This document shows positions 21,236 to 56,270 of a stretch of 64,000 nt of DNA, piece by piece. Numbering within the stretch: the first letter of the stretch is position 1; each line of letters begins with the position of its first letter. The DNA lies in assembly GCA_947184155.2 (NCBI GenBank), contig CAMXCT020003180.1, forward strand, positions 1 to 64,000, given 5' to 3'. Below the pieces are notes generated by a model that was not told the DNA's origin, made no database searches, and was given only the letters and a program-made list of their open reading frames with translations. The position numbers were made by a program, and so were the translations under genes. This DNA comes from Cladocopium goreaui (Eukaryota; Sar; Dinophyceae; Suessiales; Symbiodiniaceae).

Positions 21236-22500
21236 CAAATTGCGATGTCCTGTGTGTAAAAGCGTCTCTGTGTAAACGCGTCTGTGTGTAAAAGCGTCTG
21301 TGTGTAAAGGAGTCTGTGTGTAAAAGCCTCTGTGTGTAAAAGCTTCTGTGTGTAAAAGCTTCTGTGTGTAAAAGCTTCTGTGTGTAAAAGCGTCTGTGTG
21401 TAAAAAGGGTCTGTGTGTAAAAGGGTCTGTATGTAAAAGCGTCTGTGTGTAAAAGCGTCTGTGTGTAAAGGAGTCTGTGTGTAAAAGCCTCTGTGTGTAA
21501 AAGCTTCTGTGTGTAAAAGCGTCTGTGTGTAAAAGGGTCTGTGTGTAAAAGGGTCTGTATGTAAAAGCGTCTGTGTGTAAAAGCGTCTGTGTGTAAAGGA
21601 GTCTGTGTGTAAAAGCCTCTGTGTGTAAAAGCGTCTGTGTGTAAAAGCGTCTCTGTGTAAAAGTGTTAGTGTGTAAAACCGTCTGTGTCTAAAAGCTTTT
21701 GTGTGCAAAAGTGTCTGTGTGTCAAAGTGTTTGTGTGTGAAAGCGTCTGTGTGCAAAAGCGTCTGTGTGTAAAAGCGTCTGTGTGTAAAAGCGTCTGTGT
21801 GTAAAGGCGTCTGTGTGTAAAAGCGTCTGTGTGTAAAAGCGTCTGTGTGTAAACGCGTCTGTGTGTAAAAGTGTTTGTGTGTAAAAGCTTCTGTGTGTAA
21901 AATCTTGTGTGTAAAAGCCTCTGTGTGTAAAAGCGTCTGTGTAAAAGCTTCTGTGTGTAAAATCTTCTGTGTGTAAAAGCGTCTGTGTGTAAAAGCGTCT
22001 CTGTGTAAAAGCGTCTGTGTGTAAAAGCTTTTGTGTGCAAAAGTGTCTGTGTGTAAGGGCGTTTGTGTGTGAAAGCGTCTGTGTGTGTGTGTGCAAGCGT
22101 CTGTGTGTAACTGTGCGTGTGCAAGCATCTGTGTGTAAAAGCTTTTGTGTGCAAAAGTGTCTGTGTGTCAAAGTGTTTGTGTGTAAAAGCGTCTGTGTGT
22201 AAAAGCGTCTGTGTGTAAAAGCGTCTGTGTGTAAACGCGTCTGTGTGTAAAAGCGTCTCTGTGTAAAAGTGTCTGTGTGTCAAAGTGTTTGTGTGTAAAA
22301 GCGTCTGTGTGTAAAAGCGTCTGTGTGTAAAAGCGTCTGTGTGTAAATGCGTCTGTGTGTAAAAGCGTCTGTGTGTAAAGGTGTTTGTGTGTAAAAGTGT
22401 CTGTGTGTAAAAGCGTTCGCGTGCAAACGTGTTTGTAGAAGCGTTGGTGTGTAAAAGCTTCTGTGTGTAACAGCTTCTGCGGCTAAAAACTTTAGAGCTG
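21236..22500. repeat. 16-bp tandem array, left block
   Basis: Unit TGTGTGTAAAAGCGTC with common variants at two positions (GC-GT, GC-CT, GC-TT). About 78 units. The minus strand has no stop in any frame, so long Thr/His/Phe-rich frames appear. Blocks are repeated at higher order, e.g. the variant AAAGGAGTC recurs at 21306, 21467 and 21595. Confidence 0.95.
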
Positions 22501-23127: not shown

Positions 23128-23343
23128 CAGTGCCAACGAGACGGCACGAAACGCAACCCTTTCGCACGAAATGAAGTTCGATCGCCAAAAACTGAAGTAA
23201 AATTGCGATTTCAAGGTGTCCCGCGCAACCCTTTCGCACGAAATGAGGGTCGATCGTCAAAAACTGAGGTAAAAGTGCGAGTTCAAGTCGTCCCGCGCAA
23301 CCCTTTCGCACGAAATGAGGTTCGATCGTCAAAAACTGAGGTA
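23128..23343. repeat. 72-bp tandem array, left part
   Basis: About three copies of a unit containing CGCAACCCTTTCGCACGAAA and TCGATCGTCAAAAACTGAGG. It is cut at 23343 by the transposon and resumes at 38690. Confidence 0.9.
23342..23343. other. Target-site duplication TA, left
   Basis: TA here and TA at 38690-38691 flank the element. Removing the element and one TA restores the uninterrupted 72-mer sequence CTGAGGTAAAAGTGCG, present intact at about 23266. Confidence 0.85.
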
Positions 23344-23393
23344 CTTGGATGGGCTGTGCCTTTGCTAGTGGGTTAAGAGGTTTAAGATGTTTA
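23344..23393 (+). repeat. Left terminal inverted repeat, 50 bp
   Basis: Starts CTTGGATGGGCTGTGCCTTT. All 50 bases match the reverse complement of 38640-38689. Similarity continues for a few more bases after one mismatch. Confidence 0.95.
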
Positions 23394-24054
23394 GCTAACC
23401 TATAGCTAAGTCCTTATAAGTGTAAGTTGCAAAGCGCCATTCTGTCGACTCAGAACATGGTTTTGCTGAAAACTTTTCAAAAGTTTGAAAGAAAAATGTA
23501 CCAATTTTTCTTGTTTTTTTCAAAGATTTTTCTACAAAAGCAAATGAAGTTCAGCAGATGGCTGGTGTCCAAGATTTGCAAAAGAATTCCAAGAAGAAAA
23601 ACTTTAGTTTCTCCTTTGCCATTCCCAAATTGTATGTTTCTTTTCTGTGCCTTTTTTGAAAAACAAATTTATTCAAAAACATCGCCAATTTTCTGCCAAT
23701 CTTGGAGGAAAACCACTTAGATTGGAATATACAAAGTCATTGCAGCCTTGCTGGTACCATTGAGACACAAAGCCAGGGTAAGCCAGAATGAAACAGCATT
23801 GAATATTTGTGCCCACTCCAAAGCCACCAAAGGCTTGCAAGCTCAATGTTTTTGAAAAAGCCATGAAGGCTTGAAATGCAGCCATGAAAGGCTTCAAATC
23901 CAGCCATGAAAGGCTTGAAGTCCAGCCATGAAAGGCTTGCAGTCCAGCCATTAAGGCTTTGAACAGCAGCCATTGCAGGCTTATAGTTCCCAGCAAAAAG
24001 CAATCTAAAGGCTTGGCACCACAGCCATGTCAATTCTGACACCAATGCATTTGT
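23394..24054. other. Element left subterminal DNA with AGCC-GGCT hairpins
   Basis: Short AGCTAA-type repeats follow the TIR. From about 23770 to 24030 there are about eight mini-hairpins such as AGCCATGAAAGGCT. Confidence 0.7.
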
Positions 24055-26060
24055 TCACCTCAAGTGGAAAGGAATCAATGTTAAGACTCCTGCTTTACAA
24101 TGGCTGTATGTAACAGCTGTCAACAATTCAGAAGCTGCCACACACAGCCAATGGCCAGCCTCCTGCCACAGTGCATGGCCATTTTTGGAATCCACCAAAT
24201 TGAGCATTTCTACAATGGACCATGCCTCATTGCCAATGGCAAAGTTAAGCAGCACCTTGGCTGCAGCCAGCTGGCCTTTCTTCTCACTGGCAAGCAGCAC
24301 AACATCATTCACTGCTGCCACAGTGCCATTCTTCAGAACCAAAGTCTTGCAGCTTGCAATGTTGGTGCTGATGCCCAAATTGGCTTCCAGCCACGCCACC
24401 ACTTTCTTGGGTGCTTTTGCATTCAATTCCAGTGCAGCTTCGATCCCAAAGGGCTTTTGAGCCAATTGGTGCAAACAATGCCCCAACACTTCCACCAGCA
24501 GACCCTGCTCAAAGTTCTTCAAATTTTGGACCCTAGTGGCCACCAAGGTCACATCCTTGTGTTTCCTCTCCATTGTCCAGCAAGGAAGCAGCAATCCATG
24601 TTCCTCCAACTCATCACCATAATGCAAAAGCCAATGGAATTTTTTGATGCAATGGTCTGAATACCCAGCTGTTTTGTAAGCTACCAAAACTTTGGAGGCA
24701 GCATTGTCAAGCATGGGGCCAGTCACACACCCCATTGGTGTTGCCACCAGCAAATCCATCATGTGACAAAGCTTCAAGAAAGCATCAGTTGCAGGACAAG
24801 CTCCACCTTGAGATTCGATCTTTTCCACATAGTGCTGCAAAATGGGGTACAAGCACAGCATTTCACTTGCAGTTGCTTTCACTTTGTTGGCATTTCTGTG
24901 TGAATCCACTTTGCCAGTTGTAAACAAAGAAGACAAAGCACCCACTTTATGCAAAGCTGATGGTAAGCACCACAAATCCAAATAGTTCGACATTGCATGC
25001 CAAGCTGGAAGGCCTTCAGATTGCAAATGCTCCAACAGCAAGTACATGCCAATGTTCAAAGTGCCATTGGATACCATGCCATGCATGTAGTCATGCATAT
25101 ATTGTGTGCAAGGTTTCAGCCAAGGCCTCAAGCTTGGAGAAGATAGTAAAGCTTCTTCAGAGAAAGTCCAGCCAGCGCATTGCTCCCAAACTTGAAACTC
25201 TTTTTTGGAGCACGCATTTTTCCTGTGTGCCATTCTGTCCCAACTTGCCAAAGCTTCATCATCAGTTGCTAGGACCAATTCAGTTTTGGAAATTGTTCTG
25301 AGAACTGCTTTCTCTGCATCTTCCTCCCCTTCATGCAAAAAGACAATTTGATTGCAACATTTCAGACAGAAATTGCTGCCACTGTCCCCTTTGAGTCCAA
25401 AAGTGACTTTTTGAGAGGCACCGTCTTGAACAATAAAACCTAGTTTGTAAAACAGTCTGCACTCCTGATTGCTGGGGCCATGTAGAAGTACACCAACCAA
25501 AGGTGATGCCACTGCACTGCAAAAGATTTGTTCCATCACTGCTCTCACCACTTGTGACATTCCACCTTCCAAAGTTGCCACAATGCTGGTCCTGATGATG
25601 CCAAGCACAAGCCAATTTTGTGTGTGACTCAGAGCTGCCCTGCCCAATTGCTTGATGGAACAATACACAACCCAGACTTTTTTGTTGGCCCTCCCCAAAG
25701 CATTTGCAGGAAGGCATTCATCAGAATACAAAATGAGGTCAAATTCATTGCCAGGCCCATTTCCCAAAGAAGTAATGGCTGTAGCCAGGGAGTTGTAGAA
25801 GGAACCATTGATGCTGTAGCAAGCACTCAGCAAAGAATGAAAATTGACCAAAGGGATGGCCACCACATTGGAAGTCTTTGCTGTACAGTAAAGGGCCATA
25901 AGCATGATATTGGTCAAGGTATCTTTGTGCAGCCTCTGTCATTTGCTTCCTGCCTGCCATCTCTGGCAGCCCATATTCAGCAATGTGTTTGACAATGGCT
26001 TCCAAAGAAGATTTTGAACAGTTGGGCACTGATCTTCTTAGAAGATTCAGTTTTTGTAGC
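24055..26060 (-). pseudogene. Transposase-like gene, frameshifted
   Basis: The N-terminal part runs from an in-frame ATG near 26080 (MAERAAKLQKLNLLRRSVPN ... YHAYGPLLY) and the body is a 620-codon frame ending at 24055. The two join by a one-base shift near 25890. The body has, in order: LILYSDECLPAN (about residues 62-72), GDSGSNFCLKC with a Cys pair (about 180), YMHDYMHGM (about 275), and WTMERKHK (about 455). I recognise this layout as a high-copy family of Symbiodiniaceae genomes. I infer a DDE-type transposase related to Tnp2/Plavaka elements, with D of SDE, D or H of HDYMH and E of ERKHK as candidate catalytic residues. No non-dinoflagellate homology is proven. The short AGCC hairpins do not interrupt it. 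Confidence 0.6.
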
Positions 26061-26104
26061 TTTGCAGCTCTTTCTGCCATGGCTGCAAGTGGTAGAAACA
26101 ATTC

Positions 26105-26460
26105 TGTAACTATCTTATGTCACATTGGAAATTCTGTGAGGTTATGTCTTTGGTAAGAAGTTAGAAGAAACATTTGATTGGGGATGCAGGTAGTGCCTAG
26201 GGCCATGAAAATTGAACACTGAACCAAAAAGCCTTGGGCCATCCAATGCTTTTGTGGTTGGCACTCAAAGCTGGGAACTAGCCATGCAAGGCTTCCTATT
26301 GCTTGCCAGTACTCAACAACCAGCCACTGAAGGGCTAACAGTTTTTGTCACAAGGATTTGCACAAGCCACCAGGGCTAACCAAAGCCACAAGGGCTTGAA
26401 TAAGCCACAAGGGCTGGTCATAGCCACTTGGGCTAGCCCTCAACAACAACAGCCACCAAA
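26105..26460. other. Spacer with AGCC-GGCT hairpins
   Basis: Between the Cys-rich and transposase-like genes; contains about seven mini-hairpins, for example AGCCACAAGGGCT. Confidence 0.6.
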
Positions 26461-26631
26461 AATTGCTAACTATGCTGCAACAGAAAGCTATTCTTTTCAA
26501 GCCAAGCTTGAAGCAAATCTCCCACCAGGCACACAGCCACCAATGTTGGGCACTGGGGCCTTTGCCAACAGATCCCAGCCAAGAGGTACATTTCAGCACC
26601 TATTGAACCCCAGAAAACTTTCACAGCACAC

Positions 26632-27884
26632 TCACTTCCAGCCTTTTTTGGCTGCCATATCATTCCACTCATGCCTTCCATTGAATCTCTGTCCCTTGAA
26701 GCCTGGGCTTCGACACTTTTCACACCCTTTGGGGTTTCCCCTGCACCTGCAGCAGCCAAAGACTTTGGAAGTGCTAGCATTGTCCTTCTTCACAGTCTTC
26801 TTCTTCTCCTGGCCATTGCTGCAAGAAGCTGAAGATGCTGCTGGTCTCTTCATCACTTTGCGAGTTTTCTTGCTACTGAGAGCATCATGGGCCATTTGTT
26901 CAAAGTCTTCCAACCCAGGCTTATCATTCACCTGGTGTGGTGCACATGGAAGTGGAGGAGCATTGGGCAATGCCAAGGGCTGAGCAGCACTTGCAGGGGA
27001 AGGTACATCCTGCAATGCCAGTCTGGTGCCACCACTGCCACCAGCTTTTTGCTTCAGTTCTGCTTTCTCCTTGTCTTCATTGTACTGGTCAATGAACTTC
27101 TCCATCTTCTCCTGAAAGCCACCATCTGCCAGTGCAGCCTGTGGAGCAGGTGCACTCCTCTGGGGTTTTGGGATGCCAGTCAACAAGTTGGAAGTGCTCC
27201 TCAAGGGAATCTTGGGGTAGATGGCTGCCAATGAAACATTCATCAAAGCAGGCTGCTCAATGCCATAAGCCTTCTCCTTGAAAGCAGCAGTGAGCTGACT
27301 GGGGGAGAGCGGGTACACCTTGAGGCCAGGGAGGTCATTGTTAGCACAGTGACCAAAGGTTTTGGTTAAGTCTTGGACCATCCAGTAGATTGCCCATGGG
27401 TTTGGCATTGGCTGGTGCTGCAGGTTCACTAACACATGCAGCAGGACTCCCATGGCACTCCTTTTGGTGTCCTCTTTCATTGACCTCATCCCAAGGCTTT
27501 TGAGTCTTTCACAAATGACCCTCTGCCCATCCACATTGCTGCCTTGCTCCAAAGCCAACCAATCATTGCTGGTCAGGTAAGGTGGCAGGTTGTGCAAACT
27601 TTGGGGCCTTTGGGAAAGTTGCAAACCACTTTGGCCAGAAGCACTGAGGGCATCCATCTCATTCATCACATCATCCTTCAAACTCTCAGGCAAATTGGCT
27701 TCAGTGACTTTCTCATACAAGTCAGACAGACAAAGCACTGGGTGTCCAAGAGGTCACTCCATGCAGCCTTTGCTTCAAAGTTTCCAAAGCAGCTTTGCCA
27801 ACTTGGGACCCAGGCCTGGCTTCCAGCAATTTGGAGACATGTTCCAATTCATTGCAAAAATCTTCTGTAGACCATTGGTGGCTC
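26632..27884 (-). pseudogene. Cys-rich element protein, frameshifted
   Basis: N-terminal frame from ATG near 27884 (MSHQWSTEDFCNELEHVSKL ... HGVTSWTP) passes by a one-base shift near 27735 into a 368-codon frame (SDLYEKVTEANLPESLKDDV ...). The C-terminus has a compact Cys cluster CCRCRGNPKGCEKCRSPGFKG preceded by a basic stretch KKTRKVMKRPAA. I recognise this Cys cluster as common in Symbiodiniaceae predicted proteins, though its role is not known to me. A zinc- or nucleic-acid-binding accessory protein of the element is a reasonable guess. It lies just upstream of the transposase-like gene on the same strand. Confidence 0.55.
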
Positions 27885-27999
27885 ATGATGGGCCAGTGTG
27901 AAAGTGTGTATATGGTGAAACAAGGAGTGCTATGAACCCAAGGCTGCAAAGTCCTGGGTGAAATGCTGAAATAACAAAATACCACCAAAGCTCTCAATC

Positions 28000-28241
28000 T
28001 GACTTATAGCCACACTTGGGCTTCCACTTTGGTTTTGAGCCACTGGGGCTGGAGTATAGCCATTGAAAGGCTTGCCACACAGAATGCATCAATACAGCCA
28101 TCTAGGCTTCAACAGTACCTTCTAGCAATCAAAGGCTGGGTCATCCAAAGGCAAGCAAAGCTCACAACATTGTTTTGAAACTGCAGACATGCAAGTTGCA
28201 CAAATACACAAACTGAATTTGTTTGCACATGCCCAAGCAAA
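28000..28241. other. Spacer with AGCC-GGCT hairpins
   Basis: About four mini-hairpins between 28010 and 28110; no coding sequence. Confidence 0.5.
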
Positions 28242-28585
28242 TCAATTGGGCAAGGATTGCATTAAAGAATTTGTAATTTCTGTGTAGTATGTGACACACA
28301 CTTCACAATCACAAAGCAGTGGGTGCTGTGCATCAGAATCCCAATCAGGGATAGAAGGTGGCTCCAGTCTCACTTGCCAATAGATCTCTTCCCAGCTAGT
28401 AGTGGTGCCACTGGGGTGGACAACTGTTTCCTCAGGAACATGTTCAAGAGCAGATGTGTTGTTGCTACTGCTTTGGCTGCCTGGGTCTTCTTCAGCAGGA
28501 ATAGGCAAAATTGGCAAGACCATTGCAAATCAGCACTGGGCACCTCACTTTCCAGACCAAAAACTTGCAGGTGAAATTGAAGCAT
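28242..28585 (-). CDS. Exon-like piece, acidic, CDCEVC motif
   Basis: A 93-codon frame (VLPILPIPAEEDPGSQSSSN ... CDCEVCVTYY) ending in SLMQSLPN and a stop. No ATG in a convincing place, so an upstream exon is expected. Probably the last exon of the gene that also includes 29659-30409. Function unknown. Confidence 0.35.
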
Positions 28586-28749
28586 GTTGGGTTTGCAAAA
28601 AAAAAATGCAACTTACACAAAATATGCTGTGGATAGCTGTGAGTTTCTTGTATACTTTTGTGTGTGCAATAATTTGTAACCATATCTTGAACAATGTTTT
28701 TGTGAAAGTGGTTTATTTGGAAATATTATAGGATACAATGCTTTTGGAA

Positions 28750-29640
28750 ACTATCATTGCATTGGGCCTGCAAGTGCTACCTAGCCATGAATAACAAAAC
28801 ACTCAAGCAAAGACAGCTTTGTTCAACAAATAGCCCCATGTGGCTTGGGAGCCCATTGTGCATTGACATTTGTGCCCCAAAAGAAAGCTTGAGTTTGGGT
28901 TGTACAAGTGAGCAACCATTACAGCTACTCACACCACAAACCATAGCCATAGCCATTAAGAGGCTCAGCAAAACCATACAAGTTAAACATAGCCATAAAG
29001 GCTGAACATAGCCATAATAGCTGGACATAGCCATAAAGGCTAAACATAGCCAAAAAGGTTAAACATAGGCTGTGGGGCTCAACACATGCTATGTAAGCCA
29101 CTAGGGCTAAACAAAAGCCACCAAGGGCTAACTACAGCCACTAGGCTAAGCAAAAGCCACCAAGGGCTAGCTACAGCCACTAGGGCTAAACAAAAGCCAC
29201 CAAGGGCTACCTACAGCCACTAAGGCTAATAAAGCCACCAGGGCTAAGCAGCCACTTTGGGCTCAACCATTTGCAAGTCAGCCTCCCCTCCCCAAAGAAA
29301 AGCCACAAGGGCTAAAAAACAAGCACTGCTAAACAACTTTTACCACTGCAGCCACACAGGCTTCATACCTCTTACAACCCATTGGGTTATGGCATGGGCC
29401 TTTGCTGATCACCTACCATGATGCTTTTTTTTGAACCATTTCTAAAACAGTTTCAGTTCACCCTCAGTACCTTTCAAGTTGAATGAATTACCTTTTTCAA
29501 TTTCATTTCCATCATTTTGCATCATGATAGGTTCTTTTCCAGTCAGTGCCATGGTTCTTGTCCAGCTCATCATTGATTATCACCAGCAGTTTTGCCATTG
29601 CAGGGTGGGCATTGTACCTGAGTGGAATTGATGGGTTTAT
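28750..29640. other. Intron or spacer packed with AGCC-GGCT hairpins
   Basis: The densest run is 28930-29360, with about twenty mini-hairpins (AGCCACTAGGGCT, AGCCACCAAGGGCT and relatives). One copy at 29249-29267 reads AGCCACTTTGGGCTCAACC, close to the 3' half of the dinoflagellate spliced leader. Confidence 0.7.
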
Positions 29641-29658
29641 CACAAAAAAAGAAATACC

Positions 29659-30036
29659 TTACACCCCAAAAAAAACAAAAAAATGTTGTTGATAGCTTCC
29701 CAGTTGCTGTTTCTGGAGTTCTTTCACTTTGTCCCTTTCACCGCGGTTCAATCTGGCCAGCAGGATGCCACACCTATTCATCCATCCACTCCTGTGGCCT
29801 TCTTCCCTTTTCACTGCCACATTGGAATACCATTTCTGTTCCTCCTTGGCATTTTCTTCCTCCTTGACATTTTCAGTCTCATCATTGGCAGAACCAGAAC
29901 CACTGCCACTTGCTGTTTTGCTAGCATTTCCATCATAGGTCTTCAGTTTCTTGGCAGTTACTGGTTGTGGCAATCCCCTTTTCTTCTTCTCAGCATTGAT
30001 TGCATCGACAATCTTCTTCCTGGTAACTGTGTTTGA
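29659..30036 (-). CDS. Exon-like piece, Lys/Glu-rich
   Basis: Reads TRKKIVDAINAEKKRGLPQP ... KTYDGNASKT, then a Gly/Ser linker and NVKEEENAKEEQKWYSN. Composition and the EEQKW position resemble linker-rich proteins of the same dinoflagellate element family. No start codon of its own. Confidence 0.35.
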   Translation of the reverse strand, partial: SNTVTRKKIVDAINAEKKKRGLPQPVTAKKLKTYDGNASKTASGSGSGSANDETENVKEEENAKEEQKWYSNVAVKREEGHRSGWMNRCGILLARLNRGERDKVKELQKQQLGSYQQHFFVFFGV

Positions 30037-30109
30037 TCAGAACCTACACCAAAATAAGCAAACATGTTGCCAAACCAAAAGAAAACAAAAACAAACAGCA
30101 AAATCAATA

Positions 30110-30409
30110 CTATTTATAGCCAAGGCACTCCATCTCAGTGGCTGTGGTGCTCATTGTAAGGCAGCCATCCTTGCTGAGTTTTTCCAGCTTCACTTTCACT
30201 TCCTCTTGTAGTTGTTGCAGATGGGTGTCAGTCTCATTGTCATTGTCCACCTCCAGTTCCACCATTTCCATCTCTTCTGGTTCATGCAATGGTTCCACCA
30301 CTGAAGCTGGGCTGGGTGGCTCAGCAGGTGCCTCTTGCTTCATCCTCACTTCCATGCCAAGTAGTTGCCATGCTTGACCAATTCCAAAACAGTCTTCATT
30401 CCCTGCCAT
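30110..30409 (-). CDS. Exon-like piece, acidic
   Basis: A 99-codon frame from ATG 30409 (MAGNEDCFGIGQAWQLLGME ...) with a long Glu/Asp-rich run and a LQQLQEEVKVKLEKL coiled-coil-like segment. Probably the first exon of the gene continuing at 30036-29659. Confidence 0.4.
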   Translation of the reverse strand: MAGNEDCFGIGQAWQLLGMEVRMKQEAPAEPPSPASVVEPLHEPEEMEMVELEVDNDNETDTHLQQLQEEVKVKLEKLSKDGCLTMSTTATEMECLGYK

Positions 30410-30754
30410 TGCAACTTCAGTTGTGCAACTAAATTGCTACACAGTTCCAGATTCAGATTCAATATCTTTGCAAAAGATGCTTTGTAAGTTTTCATGATGT
30501 TTATATGAAACTCTATAGGTAAAAAAATAGATCTATTGATATCAGTTGTATATCAAGGTTTACAGTTCAAAATGTAAAAGAAACACACATACAAACATAC
30601 AGAGAACAATGCAAGTTTGGGTTTCAATTTTGGAGCTTGTTTGTTGTTTTGTTTTCTTTGCCAAATCCATAACTTTTGCTGTCAAAATGTAAAAGTGATA
30701 TTTTGAATTTATGGTTTTATTTTTCAGATTATGAGTTCAGGCTCTTGGTGTATG

Positions 30755-31090
30755 ATTTCATTCTCAAGATTCTAGATTAAGATTCTTAATCTAGGATTCT
30801 ATTTCTCAAATTCTAGATTAAGATTCTTAATCTAGGATTTCATTTCTCATATTCTAGATTAAGATTCTTAATCTAGGATTCCATTTCTCAAATGCTAGAT
30901 TAAGATTCTTAATCTAGGATTTCATTTGTCAAATTCTAGATTAAGATTCTTAATCTAGAATTCTATTTTCCAAATTCTAGATTAAGATTCTTAATCTAGG
31001 ATTTCATTTGTCAAATTCTACATTAAATTGTTTCATCTAAGATTTCACTTGCCAGATTCCAGATTAAGGTTTTCATTCTAGAATTTCATG
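30755..31090. repeat. 41-bp satellite of palindromes
   Basis: About eight copies; each unit holds CTAGATTAAGATTCTTAATCTAG, a 10-bp inverted repeat around three bases. Later copies decay toward 31090. Confidence 0.9.
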
Positions 31091-34000
31091 TTCCAATTGT
31101 TGCATTGTTGTATTTGTTTTTTTTATTTTACCTGTTGATATTTGGTATATATGTGTGACATTTTTTTGTTTGTAGTTCAGTATTCTTTGATATATGTACT
31201 GTCTGAACCTGGAACTTCAGATCGGGCACCAGTGTTTTGGAAAGCAGTGAGTTTGCCAGTCTTCATGGAATGATGAACCAATGCAATCCAATATATATAT
31301 ATATATTCAATTGATCAAGATTCAAATACATTTCAATTCATCTACTCAATTGTAATGATATTGTCTCTAGATCTGATTTGTTTGTCTTATACTAACAAAT
31401 GTAGAAATGAAATGTATGCAGTTCTATACATGTTGAGGCACTGGAGTGCTGCTGAACCAAGAGTGTAGCAATAAAAACATGTTTTGAAATGAATTGCTGT
31501 GATCCCACCATTCAAAAATAACAGCCACTTGGGCTATAGATAAAGAAAGCCACTAGGGCTAGTGAAGCCATTCAGGCTGTATGAAATCAGCCACTAGGAC
31601 TAGAAATTGAGCCACTTGGAATAGATTAGCCAAATGATGCTGAAAACAATGAGTCACTAGGACTGGAAACAAAGCCACTGGGGCTTGATGAGCCATTGTG
31701 GCCAGATGAACCATCAAAGCTGCAAGTGTCAAGCCTTTCAGGCTGCAAATGATTCTTATTAAGCTGGATAAAATCAATCCAATTGTAAAATATCAAGCCA
31801 CTGGGGCTCTAGGTGATCAACTGCAGTCAAACTAAGAAGGACACGCAAACAAGCCACCAGGGCTGGACATAAAAGCCACTTAGGGCTTCAATAGCCATAA
31901 AGGCGTGCATAGCCATTCAGGCTCCCAGGGCCCTTTGCCAAAGTCCAAGCAGCATTTTCACTCCATTGCCCAAAGAGTCATCCTCTCAGCTGTTCCACCA
32001 TTGGAAACTGGACCCACTTGTTGCATGTAAAATGCATTTTGGTGATAGGTCCAATCCAGGCCCATGCCAATTCACTGATTTCATCATTGGGGTACCTAGT
32101 CTTCCAATGTGTTGCATCCCCAACATTCAAAAGAACTGTTTAAACCTTTCAGGGGAAAAACATAGCAACTTTACAATGAATCACATCCAAGACACCAGCT
32201 CTCCCATCAATTGCTGTATTTTGCAACTCGGTAGTGGATACCATTCCTGGTGATCCATCCAGAGAAGGCCACATTGGAGTACCTGTGCCACTTCTGCATC
32301 CTGAGATGATGCATTCCACAATTAGTTGAGATAAGAAACAAAGCCACCAAAGCCACCAGGGGCTTGATTAGCAATGGTCGATCTTATACCATTTGACCCA
32401 TTGAAGGTGACACCAAAAAAATAATTGAGAAAACCAAGTGTCTCCCTTATCTCTCCATTGTCAAAGTAAAGGTAGGTCACTTCCTGGGTGTGCTTCACTT
32501 CCTTCAGTTGAGGAGCAGCTGGCATTGCTCTCAGACCTCTATCCAGTTCCTACACTTCCACTTTCACTATTCAGTTCCTACACTTCCACTATGGGGCCAA
32601 ACAGTGGCAGGTAGGAAAAACATTAGGCTTGCTCCAAACAAAAAGCCATTGGCAATAGACATGGTGCCCTTTCTGCAGAGTGGTGTTATTACTTTCCATA
32701 TACTGGAACAATGACCAATGTTGTGAAAACTACATGGTACCAAACCAAATTCAACAGAGTGGGTAAACATCACTACTTCATGAAACCAAACACTTGTGTA
32801 ACAAAAAAGTCAAGGAGGCTTGGTTGAGCCACTGTGGGGCTTGAAAGCCATAAAGGCTACAGCCACTATAGGGCTAGGTATGCTTGAAGAAGCCTCACAG
32901 CCATTGAGGCTAAGGTGCAAGCCACTGCAGGCAAACCATAGAACCATGGAGGCCCAGGTGTCAGCCATTAAGGCTAAGTTTCCAGCCATTGAGGCTAAGG
33001 TGGGTGGCTAAGCCAAGATACCAGCCATTGAGGCTAAGGTGCAAGCCATGGTGGCTACAGTGCCAGCCATTGAGGCTAAGCCAAGAACCAGCCATTCAGG
33101 CTAAGATACAGGCCATTCAGGCTACATTTTGCAACCATTCAAGCAAAGGGGCAAGACATGATGACTAAAGCCACAGCCACTGGATTCAAGCCACAAACCA
33201 TTAAAGACAAAGTACAAGCCATTCAGGCTCAGATTCAAGCCATTCAGGCTAAGCTGGCAGCCATGGAAACAAAGTGGCTAGACATTTAGGCTGAGAAGCC
33301 TGCAGCTGCAATGCAAACAGCTTTTTCCATTCCCACATAGCACTGGCTCCTCAGTTGTTCCAGTATTTGTAGTCATTGACAATCCAAGACCACCACCACA
33401 GGGTATCACACTGCCTGCATCGCATGTTGTCCTCATTCAGTCTCCAAGTCCATATCCAGCAGTGGCAAGGTCTAACACTTGATGCCCCCACACATTGCAG
33501 CCAGGAGCCCTCTGGGTGTCCCTTCACAGCCCATGCCCTGGCAGTTGCCCTGTTGGCTGAATGGCCTTCTTCCCAGGTCTGTGGGCCTTTTGGCCTTGCA
33601 CTGCCCATTGCTGGAGAAGCTTGCAGGAGCTGCTTAAGCCAAGTGCTGCTATCATGGCACAATGGCTCCTGCTGGGACAGCCAAACAAAAGACATGAGCC
33701 ACAAGGGCTGAACAGCAAACATGAGCCATCAAGCATGCCACCAGGGCAGAGCAAACAAAACCTGAGCCACCAATGGCTGAACTTAAGACTTGAGCCACTA
33801 AGGGCTAGACAAGAGAAGCCACCAAGGGCTAAACAAAAAAGACCCAAGCCACCAAGGGCTGAACACAGCACAAGAGCCCCATGGGCTTGCAACAAGTAAA
33901 TGCAATACCTACCTGCACAAAAGACCTAAACTATACAATGTGTTTTGAACACAATTTCACACAAGATGCCAAGCAAGGAGGCAAACTTGGCAAGTCATTG

Positions 34001-34387
34001 AAGCAGCCCAGGCTGAGATGCAAGCCATTCTGGCCAACATATGGGCCATGCCAGAATTGTGGTACATCTATATCCATCCCCATGCAACTGTAGCAGCAAG
34101 GCTTTCATTTGTACATTGAAACATAAGCCAATGTCTGTTGTGAACCATTTATAGGGACAACACCATCCTGAAATGCCAAGGTTTACAGCCCAGGGGGGCA
34201 AGCATTCAAACCAACTGGGCAAAAGTTTCACACAATTACACAGACCACATGGAGCACAGCCATTCCAGGCTAACTTTGGCCAAGGGGCCATGCAGGCTTA
34301 GTGTGTGCAAAGCCATGAAGGCTGATGTGTTGGCAAATGCTTCTTGTGCAGCAGCCATTCCTGTTTTGACACCACCAGTTCTGGTTG
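31091..34387. other. Long element spacer, mostly AGCC-GGCT hairpins
   Basis: Hairpin-rich stretches at 31520-31930, 32810-33260 and 33690-33890. A minus-strand piece at 32322-32525 (QEVTYLYFDNGEIRETLGFL) and one at 33351-33722 read somewhat like protein, but no gene is supported. Confidence 0.5.
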
Positions 34388-34965
34388 TCAGTCTGCTTTC
34401 TTTGATTTCTTGACATACTGCCTCTTAGCAGCATTCAGGGCATCAGACACACCATCCTTCAAAAATGCAATCACTGCAGCCAACTCTTCAGGCACCAGCT
34501 TCACTAGAAGATCCCCCTTCCAAGGCCTGGTGCCTTGGCACAGAATGTGCACTGGCTGGTCAGCCACTGAAATCTGCACCACATGGCTACCACAATTTTC
34601 TTGCACTTTTCTTTTCTTGCTTCCAGCAGCAGTTTCATTTTGAGGCACTGCATCTTGCCACATGTCTTCTTTTTCCTCACCATCTTCAGTGCCATCTTCT
34701 CCAAGGTGTAGTGCTTCCAGTGCCCTGTTCCTCAATTTCACCAACTCCTGCAGCTTGGGGCTATTTGAGAAACATGCATTCTTCTTTGCTGATGTCTGGG
34801 ACACCAGAGCAACAATGGTGTGTGAAGATGCCCTCAGTCTCAAATAGGTCACCCCTTCATATTCTTCCAGCAAGGTGCCTGGCACATGGAACCACTTCCC
34901 TTCATCACATTGAATTTCAATGCTTTGCCTGATTTTGACACCAGACATTGCTGCTGCCAGACTGC
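34388..34965 (-). CDS. Last exon of the HPDNRGG-type gene
   Basis: Reads SLAAAMSGVKIRQSIEIQCD ... to a basic end KRQYVKKSKKAD and a stop at 34388. Includes an acidic GEDGTEDGEEKEDMW run. The splice acceptor near 34965 is estimated. Confidence 0.4.
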
Positions 34966-37767
34966 ACTTGAACCAGAACCTTGCAATCAAAACAATACAT
35001 CATTCTTTAATTCTTTGCAAGCACTGATCAGTGGAAGTAGCAGCCATAAAGGCTTTCTAACCCCCTGTCAGCCATGAAGGCTTCAAGCCAGGACCAGCCA
35101 TGCAGGCTTGTATTTAGCCACAGCCACTGGGGCTAGAAGTGAAACAAGGAAAGCAAGCTCCATTTTTTGCCATGTTCACTGAAAGTGCTGGGTATGTTTC
35201 AGAACCAGACTTAGAAGCAACTCAGTGGCTGGGCTGGGCTTCTTGAACCTTCTTCTTCTTCTTGGCAATGTCCTTGGGGTTCTCAATGAGCAAGCACTCA
35301 TTTGGCTGGATGGGCCCAATGTTCTGCAAGATGGGGATTTTGCAGCCATCCACTGACATTTCACCAAAGGTCATGTTGTGGTCTTCACCATCACCTGCAG
35401 ACTTGACCCACCAAAATGGGCTCAGCACACCTTCATCCTTGTCGAAATTCTGCAAGGCTTTCATTTGTGAAATCAACCACATCTTCCCAAAGGCTTTGAT
35501 GTAGTGCTTGTCAGCAACAGGGGTGTCTTTCAGCAAAGAGACAATGCCACAGGGGACCAGCTTCAATGCATTCTTCTTGCCAAATTTCTTTGAAGCCCAC
35601 ACATGGCTTGGATTGCTGGAGAAAACCACTTCCTTGCAAGTAGGGTCACTGTCTATGCAAGCCTGCAGCAAACACTTTTGCACATGACTCTTCTGGAATT
35701 CCAATTCCACAGCACCACTCTTCTGAACAGTGTGGCTCTCTGCCTTCCCTTCAGGGCATGCCACTGCCATTGATGCTTTGGTTGCCCTCCAATCTTTCAA
35801 CTTCAAGAAATCCACCTTGACTTCCAGGGTTGGGTCAAACAATGGCTTGTGGATGAAGATGCAATGGTCATTGTGCACCTTGTCCAGTACAAAGATCTTG
35901 TTGGCATGGTCCTTGTTTTGGTACCTGGTGGGTTGGGAACAACAGTCACTTTGAAATTAAAAAGAAAAAGGGCATGAAACCTTTTTGGAAATCCAGCCAG
36001 CAAAAATTGATCAGCAAAACCCAAAGCATACTCATTGGCCATGCTGCTTCTCCTTCTCCTTGATGTGCACATTCTGCAACAAGGCCATCTCCTTTTTGCT
36101 CACTGCCAAAGTGTCACAAACTTGCAATTTGGACTCACTACTGTCAGCTTTGGCCTGTGCAACAGCAATGCCACCCAACTCATCAGTGAAAAGCTTGGAC
36201 ATGGTTGGGATGTGTTTGTGGCCATCGACTTCTCTCCCAAGCTTTTCTTTCTGCATTACATGCAGGCACAGCCTTGTTGCCAATCTCCCAAAGCAAGCCA
36301 TCTTGTAGTTCTCGGACCAGGAATCTTCCAGTATGGTCCTGGGCCGGTGTCTGGGTACAGATTGAAGCAGCAAAGAAAAACAATGCAAAAACAACAGGTA
36401 CTTTAGGTGGTGCTGGTGTTTGATAAAACAATGGAAAAGTCTGTGCTGGCAAGGGGCTCTGCCTCCAACAGTTTTGGTTTCACTGTTGGTGCCTTCAATC
36501 TCTCAATGTCTGCTTTTCCCAGCAGCTTTGCCACCCCATCCACTTGCCTGGAAGCTGTCATCATTGTTGCCCACCTAGGCTTCAAGAATGTTGGTTATGA
36601 ATAATTTGTTGCCCAGCCCAAGAATTCACTTTTGTCAAAAAACAGCAATAGACAGGATTACTGGTGCCATTCAAGCCAAGGGCATCCCAGCTCTGAAGAA
36701 CGGCACTAGGTTCTGCTCACCCTTGAGGTCAAAGTAGGTGATGGCTTTCATCATTTCCTCCCCAATCATCACAGTAGCAAAAGCTTTGCCTAGGCTGAAA
36801 TGCAACAAAGCAAGGATGGGTATTTAGACAACAAGCACCAGGAAGAGCCACTAGGGCTTGCAAGTGCCCAGGGCAAAGCCATGTGGAGGCTGAATCATTG
36901 AAAGCCATGTTGAAGATTGCACATGCTGCATGGTGATGCCTGTGTGCAGCCCAAAAATTGAATTTGAGGAGAAACATCACCAACTCCATCTTCCGGCCAC
37001 CACCAAACTTGGAGACATAGGTTGCAATTGCATCCAAGGACTTTTTGCAAGCAGGTGCACATGCCTTCAATTCCCCAAAGGCCACTTGCAGCTCTTGACC
37101 ATGTAGTACACCTTGGGCCAGCTGGGCAGCACATTCAATTTCAGACAGTTGCTTGTTGTTGGAATTGGTGCTGTTCAAGGCCATTTGGAAAAAGCCAGGC
37201 ATTTTGGGCCATTCCTCCTCCACTGCACTGCTCACTACAACCCATTGCCAGCCATCATGTAGCAGTGTTGAAACAGCATCACTTGTTGCTGTCACCTTGC
37301 CTCAGCTGCAATGGCCCTATGTCATTTGGCCCACCACATCCAGAGCCAACTGCTTTCAGCCATGCAGTGGAGTGGCTAGAGGAAACACTGAGAAACCTTT
37401 CTTGGCCAGTCATGGCAGCCAGCAGGCCACCACTACCTTCAACCAGCCTCTGATTGGCATTCAATTGCTTCTCTCTTTGGTCAGTCTTGATGGCCAGTTC
37501 AAAAGCCACTGAGCCAGTGAGGAGTTCTTTTCTCACCCCCACAGCCCACATTTTCATGCCCTTGTTCCAGCAATCCACTGCTGACAGCATTTGCCCACCC
37601 CTGTTGTCAGGGTGGGTCAAGATTTCACTGGGCTTGACCATCATTTTGTAAGCCAAGCCACATTGCAGCAATTGCTCCTGCAACCTTTCAACCTTGACTA
37701 ACACTGGGTCTTCACTGGCCATAATTTCATCCACTTTGCTTTTGACATTGGGTGGCGCTGAAGACAT
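34388..37767 (-). CDS. Multi-exon element gene of the HPDNRGGQML type
   Basis: Starts at ATG 37767 (MSSAPPNVKSKVDEIMASED). Exon-like pieces on the minus strand: 37279-37767 (with HPDNRGGQML, VGVRKELL, TGQERFLSVSSSHS), then by a one-base shift about 36915-37295 (EEWPKMPGFFQMALNSTNSN), about 36683-36793 after acceptor GCATTTCAG (LGKAFATVMIGEEMMKAITY), about 36410-36570, about 36032-36360, 35222-35925 and 34388-34965. It ends KRQYVKKSKKAD and a stop. Introns hold AGCC-GGCT hairpins. I recognise the HPDNR and SSSH motifs from a large dinoflagellate-only family; its biochemical role is unknown to me. Presence between the TIRs makes it element cargo or an element gene. Confidence 0.5.
35222..35878 (-). 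CDS. Penultimate long exon of the HPDNRGG-type gene
   Basis: A 218-codon frame (DHCIFIHKPLFDPTLEVKVD ... NPKDIAKKKKKVQEAQPSH). Its stop lies just inside the next intron, so the exon probably ends near 35230. Contains GVLSPFWWVKSAGDGEDHNM. Confidence 0.4.
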   Translation of the reverse strand: MHNDHCIFIHKPLFDPTLEVKVDFLKLKDWRATKASMAVACPEGKAESHTVQKSGAVELEFQKSHVQKCLLQACIDSDPTCKEVVFSSNPSHVWASKKFGKKNALKLVPCGIVSLLKDTPVADKHYIKAFGKMWLISQMKALQNFDKDEGVLSPFWWVKSAGDGEDHNMTFGEMSVDGCKIPILQNIGPIQPNECLLIENPKDIAKKKKKVQEAQPSH

Positions 37768-37789
37768 GGTTTAAAAAGCACCAAGACTA

Positions 37790-38639
37790 CCTGCAACACT
37801 CAGAAGCCAAGGCTGCATTGGCTTGGAAATGGTTCAACCACACTCAACCAAGGATTGGGGTTGCAAACATCATTTTGCACACAATTGCCACCAGGGCTGT
37901 GAACAAGTTAGCCATGGCAGGCTGGTAAAGTATATAGCCACCATGGGCTGGTTGACACAGCCATCAAGGCTTAGGCATCCTTTTTCAGGTTTGCAAACGT
38001 AGCCAGGGCTGGAGCTATACCACATTGCCACTAGGACTGCCATGCATTGCCACCAAACATAAGAAACAAACAGCTTGGTTGGAAGGAAGCAAGATTCCAA
38101 GGCAACAAAAACAAATCTGGTAGAATTTCAATAGAATCAAAGCTTCAAAGCAAAAGAACAACAAGCATGCTTGCAAGGGTTCACCCACAAGAAATTGGAA
38201 AGCACCAGCCATGTGCAGGTTTGGTACACAGAGCTGAAACAGCACTTGTGTTGCTTGCAAACAAAATACATATGGTGTGCACATTGGCCAGCAAGTTCCA
38301 ACTGGCATTTTTGTTTGTTTCCACAAAATCACAAAAAAGAAATATGCCTTGTTTTTTTTGTTGATACTTTTACTTTGAAATTTCCAAATTGTATTTTCAA
38401 CACAAATCCTGGCAACACATTTTCACTTGCCAAATCAAAATTTGCTAGAAAGTCACTAATATAAAAATAAAGAGAAAAATATTGCTAAACAGGCTAAACC
38501 TCCTAAAGTCTTAACATGTTTAAGATGGCTAGCTAAAAAAACTAAACTCTTAGCTAAACATCTTAAACCTTGTAACATGTTAGCAGAATGTTAGCAATAT
38601 GTTGACATATGATAAGCATATGCTTAACAAGCCCTTAGA
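37790..38639. other. Element right subterminal DNA
   Basis: AGCC-GGCT hairpins to about 38050, then unique DNA, then short TTAGCTAAAC/TCTTAAAC repeats next to the right TIR. This is the probable promoter side for the minus-strand genes; no specific signal was recognised. Confidence 0.5.
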
Positions 38640-38689
38640 TAAACATCTTAAACCTCTTAACCCACTAGCAAAGGCACAGCCCATCCAAG
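38640..38689 (-). repeat. Right terminal inverted repeat, 50 bp
   Basis: Reverse complement of 23344-23393 with no mismatch. Followed by TA at 38690-38691. Confidence 0.95.
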
Positions 38690-38915
38690 TAAAAGTGCGA
38701 GTTCAAGTCGTCCCGCGCAACCCTTTCGCACGAAATGAGGTTCGATTGTCAAAAACTGAAGTAAAAGTGCGAGTTCAAGTCGTCCCGCGCAACCCTTTCG
38801 CACGAAATGAGGTTCGATCGTCAAAAACTGATGTAAAATTGCGATTTCCGGGTTCCCGTTGCAACCCTTTCGCACGAAATGAGGGTCGATCGCCAAAAAC
38901 TGAGGTAAAATTGCG
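38690..38915. repeat. 72-bp tandem array, right part
   Basis: About three more copies in the same orientation as 23128-23343, continuing the array across the insertion. Confidence 0.9.
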
Positions 38916-38924
38916 ATTTTTCTG

Positions 38925-39720
38925 CGTGTACAAAGCTTCTTTCTGTGTGCTGTGTGTCAAAAATTCTGTGTGTAAAAGCATCTGTGCGTAAAAGCCTCTG
39001 TGATGTAAAAGCGTCTCTGTGTAAAAGCGTCTGTGTGTAAAAGCGTCTGTGTGTAAAAGCGTCTGTGTGTAAAAGCGTCTGTGTGTAAAAGTGTCTGTGT
39101 GTAAAAGCGTCTGTGTAAAAGCGTCTGTGTAAAAGCGTCTGTGTAAAAGCGTCTGCTTAAAAGCTTCTGTGTGCTCTGTGTAAAAGCGTCTGTGTGTAAA
39201 AGCGTCTGTGTGTAAAAGCGTTTGTGTCAAAAGCGTCTGTGTAAAAGCTTCTGTGTGTAAAAGCGTCTGTGTGTAAAAGCCTCTGCGTGTAAAAGCTTCT
39301 GTGTGTAAAAGCCTCTGCGTGTAAAAGCTTCTGTGTGTAAAATCTTCTGTGTGTAAAAGCCTCTGTGTGTAAAAGCGCCTGCGTGTAAAGCCGTCTGTGT
39401 GTAAAAGTTTCTGTTGTGTAAAAGTGTCTGTGTGTCAAAGCGTTTGTGTGTAAAAGTGTTTGCGTGTAAAAGCGTCTGCGTGTAAAAGCGTCTGCGTGTA
39501 AAAGCGTCTGTGTGTAAAAGCGTTTGCGTGTAAAAGCTTCTGTGTGTAAAAGCCTCTGCGTGTAAAAGCGTCTGCGTGTAAAGCCGTCTGTGTGTAAAAG
39601 TTTCTGTTGTGTAAAAGTGTCTGTGTGTCAAAGCGTTTGTGTGTAAAAGTGTTTGCATGTAAAAGCGTCTGCGTGTAAAAGCGTCTGCGTGTAAAAGCGT
39701 CTGTGTGTAAAAGCGTTTGC
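38925..39720. repeat. 16-bp tandem array, middle block
   Basis: Same unit and orientation as 21236-22500, with more CTGCGTG variants. A block of about 200 bp recurs at 39290-39490 and 39520-39700. Confidence 0.95.
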
Positions 39721-40207: not shown

Positions 40208-40650
40208 ATTCTGGTAGATTTGCGTGTAAAAGCGAGTGTGTGTGTGTAAATAAGTCTGTGTGTGGAAATGCTCTCAGAATGACTGAACTGTGTGGTGCAA
40301 AAGCGTCTGTGCGTAAAAGTTTCTGTGTGTAAAAGCGTCTGTGTGTAAAAGCGCCTGTGTGTAAAAACGTCTGTGTGTAAAAGCTTCTGTGGTAAAAGCG
40401 TAAAAGATTGTGTGTAAAAGCGTCTGTGTGTAAAAGCAACTGTGTGTAAAAGCGTCTGTGTGTAAAACTGTCTGTATGTAAAAGCGCCTGTGTGTAAAAG
40501 TGTCTGTGTGTAAAAGTGCCTTGTGTGTAAAAGCGTCTGTGTGTAAAAGTGTCTGTGTGTAAAAGCGCCTGTCTGTAAAAGCTTCTCTGTGTAAGGGGCT
40601 CTCTGTGTAAAAGCTTGCTCTGTGTAAAAGCTTCTGTGTGCAAAAGTGTT
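40208..40650. repeat. 16-bp tandem array, right block
   Basis: Same unit as before, more degenerate. Confidence 0.9.
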
Positions 40651-43914: not shown

Positions 43915-45714
43915 TTGTTTTGTGTTTTCAAATTTGTATCTGTAGCCTTTAGTTGCTTTCAACTGAGGAACTTGTTGCCAGAAGGCTCAGTGGCAGTTGC
44001 AGAAAGGTCTTTTGGGCTCTTTGCCAACAAGACATTTGCCAAGGAGGTTTATGCCATATATGGATCATTTGCCCAACACAAAACCAAGCTCCAATGTGAA
44101 GATGCTTGGTTCATTTTAGCCATATTGCCATCCACTATAGTGGCTGAACTGGAAGCCAGCATTGGCCAAGTCTTTGCCAAGCTCATTGAAGCAATATTCT
44201 TGGGGCCAGCTTGTGATCCAAGGATTGGCTTGTACATGCCACACCCAGTAACCTGCATGGATGTCATGCTGTACTTTGATTTGGGTGGCTTTGTCCAAGA
44301 TGGCTTAGCCATGAAGCAAACCTTCAATATCAAGGGGGCTTCTGGTGACAAGTTTTGCATGTTGTGCAGCAACATCAGGGCCATTTCTTTGGATTTGCCA
44401 CCAGTTACACCAGAGGAAGATATACCAGGGTCTCATGTGACCAAGCTTGCAAATTGCATCCTGCCCACTGACTAAGAAGTTTTGGATGCATTCCAGGTTT
44501 GCAAGGAAAAGTCTACCACATTACCCAAGAAACAATTTGAAATGTGGGAGAACGCATGTGGCATCACCTTCAACCACCATGCCCTTTTGCTCAACCAGAC
44601 CCTTTTGGATAGCCACCTCTTGAAGCCAATTAGTGGCTACATCCATGACTGGATGCACACCATGGCTTCCCAAGGGGTGATCCAAAGGTCCATTTGGCTG
44701 CTGCTTTCCCAGCTGGACATGTGGGACCAGCTGGAGCCATTTCTCCAGTTGTGGACTTTGCCAAAAGCCATGGCCAAAGCAGGAAACTTGCATGATTTGT
44801 TCCAGACCAAGAGGGCCAAATTTTACAAGGAAAATTCCAAGTTCAAATGCGCAGCATCAGAAGCCATTGGCCTCTCCACCATGCTGGCATACCTGGTAAA
44901 CACCATTTGTGCGCCAGCTGCTGCCCATTTGGACCAATGCCACAGCTTTTTGGCCATGGTGGAAGCCTTGGAAACACTGCAAGCCACCCAGCTTGGCCAA
45001 GTGCAGCCACCCAGGTTGCAGCAAGCCATTGAAAAGGCCTTGGACTTCTTCAAAGATTGCAATGGCGAAGCCATGATGCTGAGGAAGCATCACTGGATGC
45101 TCCATTTGGCAACCCATTTGCAAGTATGGGGCTTTCTTCCCAACTGTTTCAGCCTTGAAAGAAAGCACAAAACCACCATGAAGTTTGGCAACCAGACCAA
45201 GAAGTTGACAGGATTCAGCTTCAGCCTGCTGGAGGAATGCCTAGCCCATGACTTGTACAACTTGCAGCATTCAGACAACTTGGAAGCAGGGGTGCAATTG
45301 TTGAACAAGCATGCTCCCAGTTCAAAATTTCATGATTTTTTTTGTGCTGCAATTTTCAATCAGCAAATTCCAAAGGACCAGGTTTGGACTGCAACTTCAG
45401 CCAAGTTGCACAATGGTGCCTCCATCCACAACAAGGATTTTGTTCTTGTCAGCAGCACCAATGCCTATAAATGGCAAGTTGCCAGAATGGAACACCACTT
45501 TGAAGTCCAAGGGGTTGTGTACTCTATTGTGACTTTTTTGCACATGCATAGAATATTTTTATTCCAGCCATTCAGCACAAGTCCAAATTCAGGATCAGCT
45601 GCAGCTGATAGAAACTTCTGCCATCCTTTGCCCTCTCATTTATGCAGAGGAAGAAAGAGCCACCAGGGTTCTCATTCCATGCCTACAGACCATCCAAAGA
45701 CTAGATGCCATTGA
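43915..45714 (+). pseudogene. Transposase-like pseudogene, second copy
   Basis: Two frames in the same phase (43915-44475 and 44482-45714) are separated by a single in-frame TAA at 44473-44475. Shared order with the 24-26 kb copy: GGFVQDG, GASGDKFCMLC, YIHDWMHTM, RKHHWMLHL, FSLERKHK, and a C-terminal LHNGASIHNKDFVLVSS. The SDE-x-PAN segment of the first copy has no equivalent here, so the first catalytic acidic residue is missing or on a lost exon. The two copies differ at most positions, so they are old relatives, not recent duplicates. Confidence 0.6.
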
Positions 45715-55000: not shown

Positions 55001-56270
55001 TTACACACAGAAGCTTTTACACACAGAAGCTTTTACACACAAACGCTTTTGCACACAGACGCTTTTACACACAGAAGCTTTTACACACAGACGCTTTCAC
55101 ACACAGAGACTTTTACACACAGAAGCTTTTACACACAAACACTTTTACCCACAGCACTTTTACACACACACACACACTTTTCTTTTACACACACACACTT
55201 TCACACACAGAGGCTTTTACACACAGACGCTTTTACACACAGATCTTTTACACACAGATGCTTCTACACACAGATGCTTCTACACACAGAAGCTTTTACA
55301 CACAAACGCTTTTACACACAGACGCTTTTACACACAGACGCTTTTGAACACAGACGCTTTTACACACAGAAGCTTTTACACACAGACACTTTTACCCACA
55401 AAAGCTATTACACGCACACGCTTTTCTTTTACACACACACACATTCACACTCAGAGGCTTTTACACACAGACGCTTTTACACACAGAGGCTTTTACACAC
55501 AGACGCTTTTACACACAAACGCTTTTACACACAGACGCTTTTACACACAGAAGCTTTTACACACAGACTCCTTCACACACAGATGCTTTTACACACAGAA
55601 ACCTTTGACTCCTTTACACGCAGACGCTTTTACACACAGACGCTTTTACACACAAACACTTTCACACACAGAGGCTTTTACACACAAAAGATTTAACGCA
55701 GGGGCTTTTACACACAGACGCTTTTACACACAGAAGCTTTTACACGCAGAGACTTTTACACGCAGACGCTTTTACACATAGACGCACTTTCACACACAGA
55801 GGCTTTTACACACAGACTGCTTTACACACAGACGCTTTTACACACAGACGCTTTTACACACAGAAGCTTATACATACAGACTCCTTTACACAAAGACGCT
55901 TTTACACGCAGAAGCTTTTACGCACAGACGCTTGTACACACAGACGCTTTTTCACACAGACGCTTTTACACACAGACGCTTTCACACACAGAAGCTTTTA
56001 CACACAGAAGCTTTTACACACAGACTCCTTTACACACAGACGCTTTTACACACAGAGGCTTTTACACACAGACGATTTTACACACAAACACTTTTCACGC
56101 ACAGAGGCTTTTACACACAGAAGCTTTCACACACAGACGCTTTTACTCACAGAAGCTTTTACACACAGACGCTTTTACACACAAACACTTTTCACGCACA
56201 GAGGCTTTTACACACAGAAGCTTTCACACACAGAAACTTTTACACACAAACACTTTCACACACAGAGACC
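52010..56270. repeat. 16-bp tandem array, inverted 4.3-kb block
   Basis: Same 16-mer as at 21-40 kb in the opposite orientation (TTTTACACACAGACGC). About 260 units. 52521-52760 recurs at 53161-53400, an exact offset of 640 bp (40 units). Insertions of CGCTTTTCTTTTACACAC type recur near 52850, 53100, 54930, 55165 and 55410. Frames of up to 484 codons repeat a 16-residue Thr/His/Phe-rich peptide and are artefacts. Confidence 0.95.

Follow-up and report, generated by a model that had tools for sequence, protein, structure and literature searches.

Among described transposable elements, the closest to the one reported here belong to the CMCT clade, which in the available text of PMC12730594 comprises EnSpm/CACTA, Mirage, Chapaev, Transib, Plavaka, ESTA and Lanisha and is defined by a transposase with three catalytic acids, two cysteines and three histidines. 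Members of the clade make target site duplications (TSD) of 2-5 bp and carry CA..TG termini “in most cases”, according to the same text (PMC12730594). The fungal Plavaka elements are there given a TSD of 2 bp (PlavakaA) or of 2 or 3 bp (PlavakaB) and termini of the form TGT..ACA or CATCA..TGATG. In plant CACTA elements the transposase is accompanied by the product of ORF2, which supports excision (PMC4158355, available part). The EnSpm elements of the red alga Chondrus crispus reach 16-20 kb and hold 4-5 ORFs, as described in the accessible portion of PMC6431247, so large multi-gene CACTA-like elements already have a precedent. For dinoflagellates, the literature searched, outside which lie most subscription papers and Repbase Reports, yielded no paper recognised as describing an element such as the one below; transposons are mentioned in a review of dinoflagellate genomics from 2024, the main text of which, as far as available, does not use the word transposase (PMC11453091).

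The window, meaning the whole stretch of 64,000 nucleotides analysed (positions 1 to 64,000 of contig CAMXCT020003180.1 of the dinoflagellate Cladocopium goreaui), contains a large element whose ends can be placed to the base (Table 1). The genome around it has 34 matches to DVNP, the dinoflagellate nucleoprotein family, against none in 14 control genomes, as befits a dinoflagellate. The first-pass annotation had described it as an intact transposon with perfect terminal inverted repeats (TIR) and a TA target duplication, the excision of which together with one TA would rebuild a 72-bp tandem repeat. The ends live up to this description. The two TIR agree at all 50 positions, and an inverted comparison of both ends shows that identity stops after these 50 bp, with divergence beyond. 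TA stands at either side, and the flanks joined with one TA match the adjacent 72-bp units at 79/80 and 78/80 positions. A longer joined-flank test gives 117/120 matches to the repeat when one TA is kept, against 75/120 with both TAs and 74/120 with none. The word “intact” holds for these ends and fails for the genes, two of which (II and III) carry frame-shifting indels in this copy.

Table 1. Positions of the element, its target site and its internal features in the window.
Feature	Positions	Strand	Length or number	Remarks
C. goreaui element	23344-38689		15,346 bp	window contig = C3180
Left TIR	23344-23393	+	50 bp	starts CTTGGATGGGCTGTG; 50/50 against right TIR as inverted repeat
Right TIR	38640-38689	-	50 bp	
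Inverted end sequence expected of relatives in other dinoflagellates				CTTRGATSRGCTG
TA target duplication, left copy	23342-23343			
TA target duplication, right copy	38690-38691			
72-bp tandem repeat (target), portion left of insertion	23152-23343			
72-bp tandem repeat (target), portion right of insertion	38690-38916			
Gene I	35222-37767	-		several exons, approximate limits; start codon 37767; pieces conserved with families B and C
Gene IV	34388-34948	-	~190 aa	38% identity with family B across 197 aa
Probable gene V or extra exons	28242-30409	-		weakest member of the gene set
Gene II	26632-27886	-		basic; frame-shifted in window copy
Gene III	24055-26080	-		putative DDE transposase; frame-shifted in window copy
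Dyad AGCCAY..RGGCT	23822-37959	+	66 copies	all outside exons

At least four co-oriented genes or gene parts had been claimed for the element, and protein comparison of the window copy (family A) with the related family B recovers four clearly conserved minus-strand blocks and a probable fifth. From the right end they run in the order I, IV, probable V, II, III. Probable gene V shares with family B conserved pieces of 72 aa (E 2e-12) and 37 aa (E 6e-4), its first piece not being conserved, and these pieces could belong to gene II. In families A and B the gene II protein ends in a basic KRPAA stretch and a C.RCRGN.KGC..C motif. The gene is open over 455 aa in C176 and C3788 (C-numbers denote contigs of the genome searched, 1.17 Gb in 6,202 contigs), and the window copy differs from both by a 4-bp indel. 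In gene III the window copy lacks 14 bp near 25871 relative to C176; the same 14 bp are missing in C3788, and C176 itself is short of ~35 bp close to the beginning of gene I. The gene III deletion is thus common to the window and C3788 copies at different sites, which suggests that damaged copies moved in trans; duplication of a larger stretch is a less likely origin of the shared deletion, one flank of C3788 being known.

Protein family libraries provide no convincing name for any element gene. No Pfam match above cut-off was returned by the 16 element ORFs of the window, by 16 gene III relatives or by five ORFs of relatives outside gene III, four of which belong to genes II and V, and five proteins have no NCBIfam match. 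The best weak library match links gene II to an unnamed PHROG (E 0.0045). Elsewhere in the window, a distant relative of gene III lies at 43963-45600 (+), 29-33% identical to 16 queries, and the remainder outside the element holds no gene I main exon and no gene II match.

A second full-length copy (C176:118753-134095, 15,343 bp) is 99.1% identical to that of the window; identity stops exactly after the TA at each side, and the flanks are unrelated. The joined flanks of C176 (300 bp) occur as empty sites in C284 (100%) and C317 (99%), which are either alleles or duplicated loci. The third copy of family A, C3788, ends at a contig border. The TIR of the related family B matches at ~80% across 76 bp. 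Three bounded copies of this family, 14.4-14.5 kb long, lie at C743 (14,534 bp), C4376 (14,426 bp) and C6042 (14,458 bp), the last with an empty site in C1071 (99% over 250 bp). More ends of this family lie at C3651, C4982, C3725 and C553, with two at C2741; C3651 and C4982 share a flank and may be one locus counted twice. Bounded copies of more distant families, at C211, C2046, C3613, C4082, C5821 and C877, measure 11.7-12.2 kb. Bounded copies of similar length and empty sites were what the first-pass annotation expected a genome search to find, and both are present.

Both flanks could be read in seven copies, and in six of them the 2-bp duplications are equal: TA in the window, C176 and C4082, TG in C6042 and C4376, and TT in C743, where removing one TT restores a 79-bp tandem repeat at 119/120 positions. 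The flanks of C2741 are unequal (AA versus CA), the only exception among the seven. The TA duplication is therefore real at the window site, and as a general target rule it falls to the TT, TG and TG of other copies. The insertions at C743, the window, C4376 and C2741/C3725 sit in tandem or simple repeats.

Is the association of these genes a peculiarity of a few recent copies? Genome matches number at least 92 for gene I (main exon), 123 for gene II, 73 for gene III and 99 for gene IV, all lower bounds, with 150/151, 110/456, 70/779 and 139/139 candidates scored, respectively. Merged into places, they become 91, 102, 70 and 98. In 67 of the 91 gene I places a gene II of the same orientation lies no more than 15 kb downstream, and in 55 of the 102 gene II places gene III follows within 6 kb. 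Of the 70 gene III places, 43 are preceded by both genes I and II in the same orientation; I, II and IV are all present in 30, one or more of these three in 64, and none in six. These 64 places bear out the proposal that families usually seen as separate high-copy dinoflagellate proteins are joined in one element. For genes I, II and III there is no place with a partner solely in the wrong order or strand. The position of gene IV relative to gene I is variable, since it follows gene I in 27 places and precedes it in 21 (the nearest 8 kb are free of gene I in 50); in two places it lies downstream of gene III. The loci extend to ~30% transposase identity, and the gene set is therefore old.

The terminal sequence, too, recurs in other families. 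Downstream of gene III, 1.2-1.5 kb past the gene in eight other copies, CTTGGATCAGCTG is found in C589 and C4968 and CTTAGATGGGCTG in C211 and C2046, while C4082, with both ends located (12,203 bp, TA/TA), has CTTAGATCAGC. Three of the eight (C4101, C454 and C12) show no CTTRG end within that distance, and 2.4 kb of sequence examined for the opposite end of the C589 element did not contain it. A degenerate pattern for the TIR end, CTTRGATSRGCYKKGNNNKTNYTARYNRGTT, derived partly from sites that it recovers, occurs at 58 genome sites, against none for the reversed-pattern control. Thirteen pairs of these sites are convergent. Genes I, II and III together lie inside nine of the 13 and at least one of them inside 11, so that recurrence of the gene set between TIR pairs, a further expectation of the early reading, is also found. 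The C3613 pair encloses genes I and II; that of C877 encloses gene III, and gene IV is there too. A single-base difference at its far end keeps C176 out of these pairs. Two pairs hold no gene I, II or III among the matches listed (C191:355245-362535, 7.3 kb, and C4195:1871-5922, 4.05 kb) and are perhaps candidate non-autonomous forms. Among the matches listed, these genes lie inward of 16 of the 32 unpaired ends, within 20 kb, and outward of none; the other 16 ends are without them.

The non-coding DNA of the element carries a further signature. Besides the 66 strict dyads of Table 1, two more occur in the opposite form, and none falls in the 6.86 kb of element exons (approximate limits), in the 48.65 kb of window outside the element or in 75.4 kb flanking other copies. 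The loose form AGCC..GGCT has 77 sites in the element, against 3.3 in shuffles, with three more elsewhere in the window and four in the flanks. Family B (C743) has 38 dyads, again with none in 6.65 kb of exons. In eight more distant families the strict dyad has three sites in total and the loose form, counted without a shuffle control, is present in seven; the exception, C4101, has no loose dyad within 2.2 kb. The loose form is often a variant particular to the family, as in C4082 (AGCCTGCAAAGGCT), C2046 (AGCCCTCAAAGGCT) and C211 (AGCCCTTGCAGGCT).

We would guess that the dyads are binding sites of an element protein, most likely that of gene II. Could they instead work in RNA, in splicing or in the processing of a long transcript? 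Their confinement to introns and spacers lends this some weight, as does the fact that in families A, B and C they all point opposite to the genes. However, dyads also occur downstream of the last gene, and in the window arrays they are often spaced 19-26 bp apart, close to two helical turns, which speaks for protein-bound DNA. A role in RNA is a possibility to be taken seriously, with the balance tilting against it. The dyad core also resembles the dinoflagellate spliced leader. As relics of that leader the dyads were rejected: the leader (up to three mismatches) is absent from the window, and the dyads are oriented against the genes.

The class of the element turns on gene III. In an alignment of 16 gene III sequences, whose identity to that of C176 is 29-96%, D125, D224, C243, C246, H338, H487, H491 and E509 are invariant in all 16, the D, D, E plus two cysteines and three histidines of the CMCT signature. 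The short TSD of the clade is matched as well, with 2 bp in six of seven copies. The clade mostly has CA..TG termini, whereas this element ends in CTTRG..CYAAG; the mismatch is still compatible with membership, since those termini are given only for most cases. It also differs in its four to five genes and in showing no detectable profile similarity. The Pfam Plavaka family (PF18759) gives a best E of 0.061 in one of 16 gene III members, below cut-off; a genome-wide search with this family returned no match, its control being silent too. Against the PDB, a single-sequence search gives a match at chance level (E 1.4) and a profile search none. The residues and the TSD agree with the clade, the ends disagree, and profile support is absent or very weak; gene III is best taken as a putative CMCT-like transposase and is assigned here to no named lineage. 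Values of dN/dS of 0.15-0.23 in four comparisons between families, with dS at 1.2-2.8 and near saturation, point to purifying selection at that depth; within family B the ratio is 0.55 on very few changes, and within family A the changes are too few for an estimate.

With exact ends, varied 2-bp duplications, empty sites, a conserved terminus, recurring co-oriented genes and recent movement all in evidence, the element is probably a DNA transposon that moves by cut and paste, from a large lineage with several genes per element and a transposase bearing the CMCT residue signature. Might it belong to a lineage that already has a name, such as Plavaka, ESTA or Lanisha, or to the enlarged red-algal EnSpm? 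The signature and the 2-bp duplication would fit, the latter being shared with Plavaka, and the Chondrus crispus elements are alike in size and gene number, a likeness of description, not of sequences (PMC6431247, available part). Against this, the termini are unlike those of PlavakaA, PlavakaB and EnSpm as given in the available text of PMC12730594, and no Pfam match rises above cut-off. Membership of a named lineage is on this showing rather unlikely.

Plant En/Spm elements have CACTA (or CAC..GTG) ends, a 3-bp TSD and two ORFs, and the present element departs from them in ends, duplication and gene number. TnpA sites of En/Spm are subterminal, unlike the dyads here, which span the whole interior. 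In outline the two may nevertheless be alike, if a transposase is here joined by a second protein that supports excision.

In our reading, multi-gene CMCT-like transposons of this type form a new lineage in dinoflagellates. By analogy with DDE transposases, the gene III protein would pair and cut the CTTRG ends and insert the element with a 2-bp staggered cut of the target. The gene II protein, basic and cysteine-rich, might serve as a DNA-binding helper in the manner of TnpA, with the dyads of the element as its sites, and genes I, IV and probable V would encode accessory proteins. A more far-reaching version, which we consider tentative and would not yet favour, makes the lineage a dinoflagellate superfamily of its own, marked by CTTRG termini, a module of 4-5 genes and an element-wide oriented dyad code read by an element protein. 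If true, the dyads would mark all non-coding DNA of the element, for example assembling or shielding it in the unusual chromatin of dinoflagellates, dyad variants and reader protein would diverge together between families, and several abundant unnamed dinoflagellate protein families would be explained at once.

Two readings outside the CMCT clade fare much worse. A Tc1/mariner-type element, with its TA target and captured passenger genes, would suit the TA duplications of the window, C176 and C4082. However, three of the six equal-flank copies have TT or TG, with the repeat restored at C743 and the empty site of C6042 behind them, so the duplications do not keep to TA alone. Nor are genes I, II and IV recent passengers, because they accompany gene III, in 64 of its 70 places, down to ~30% identity; this origin is very improbable. 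Polintons make target duplications longer than 2 bp. A Polinton/Maverick or other virus-like element, suggested by a size of 12-15 kb, TIR and several genes, is just as hard to credit, given a 2-bp duplication, no polymerase, capsid or integrase Pfam match in the 16 window ORFs and five ORFs of relatives (hence no polymerase B and integrase pair), and 38 pattern matches in IMG/VR of which none was confirmed as a relative.

The many matches to genes I to IV in a 1.17-Gb genome are for the most part pieces of a single type of mobile element. Its exact ends, recent insertions and empty sites provide a means to annotate unnamed proteins and to date its activity. They may also lend themselves to a transposition tool for organisms in which transformation is difficult, and in the oriented dyads there is an element-wide signal open to bench testing.

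Some structures in and around the copies are worth recording. C2741:15275-37063 is a bounded element of 21.8 kb with genes I and IV present twice, 7,345 bp apart; since these genes are doubled and the flanks resemble those of C743 and C3725, it is likely the product of recombination or an assembly misjoin. A 16-bp repeat (CTGTGTGTAAAAGCGT or its complement) forms long arrays on either side of the element in the window (21250-22479, 38950-39716, 40295-40646 and 52029-56266). Within the element, a 41-bp tandem array at 30754-31089 is found in C176 too, and family B has a related version of it.
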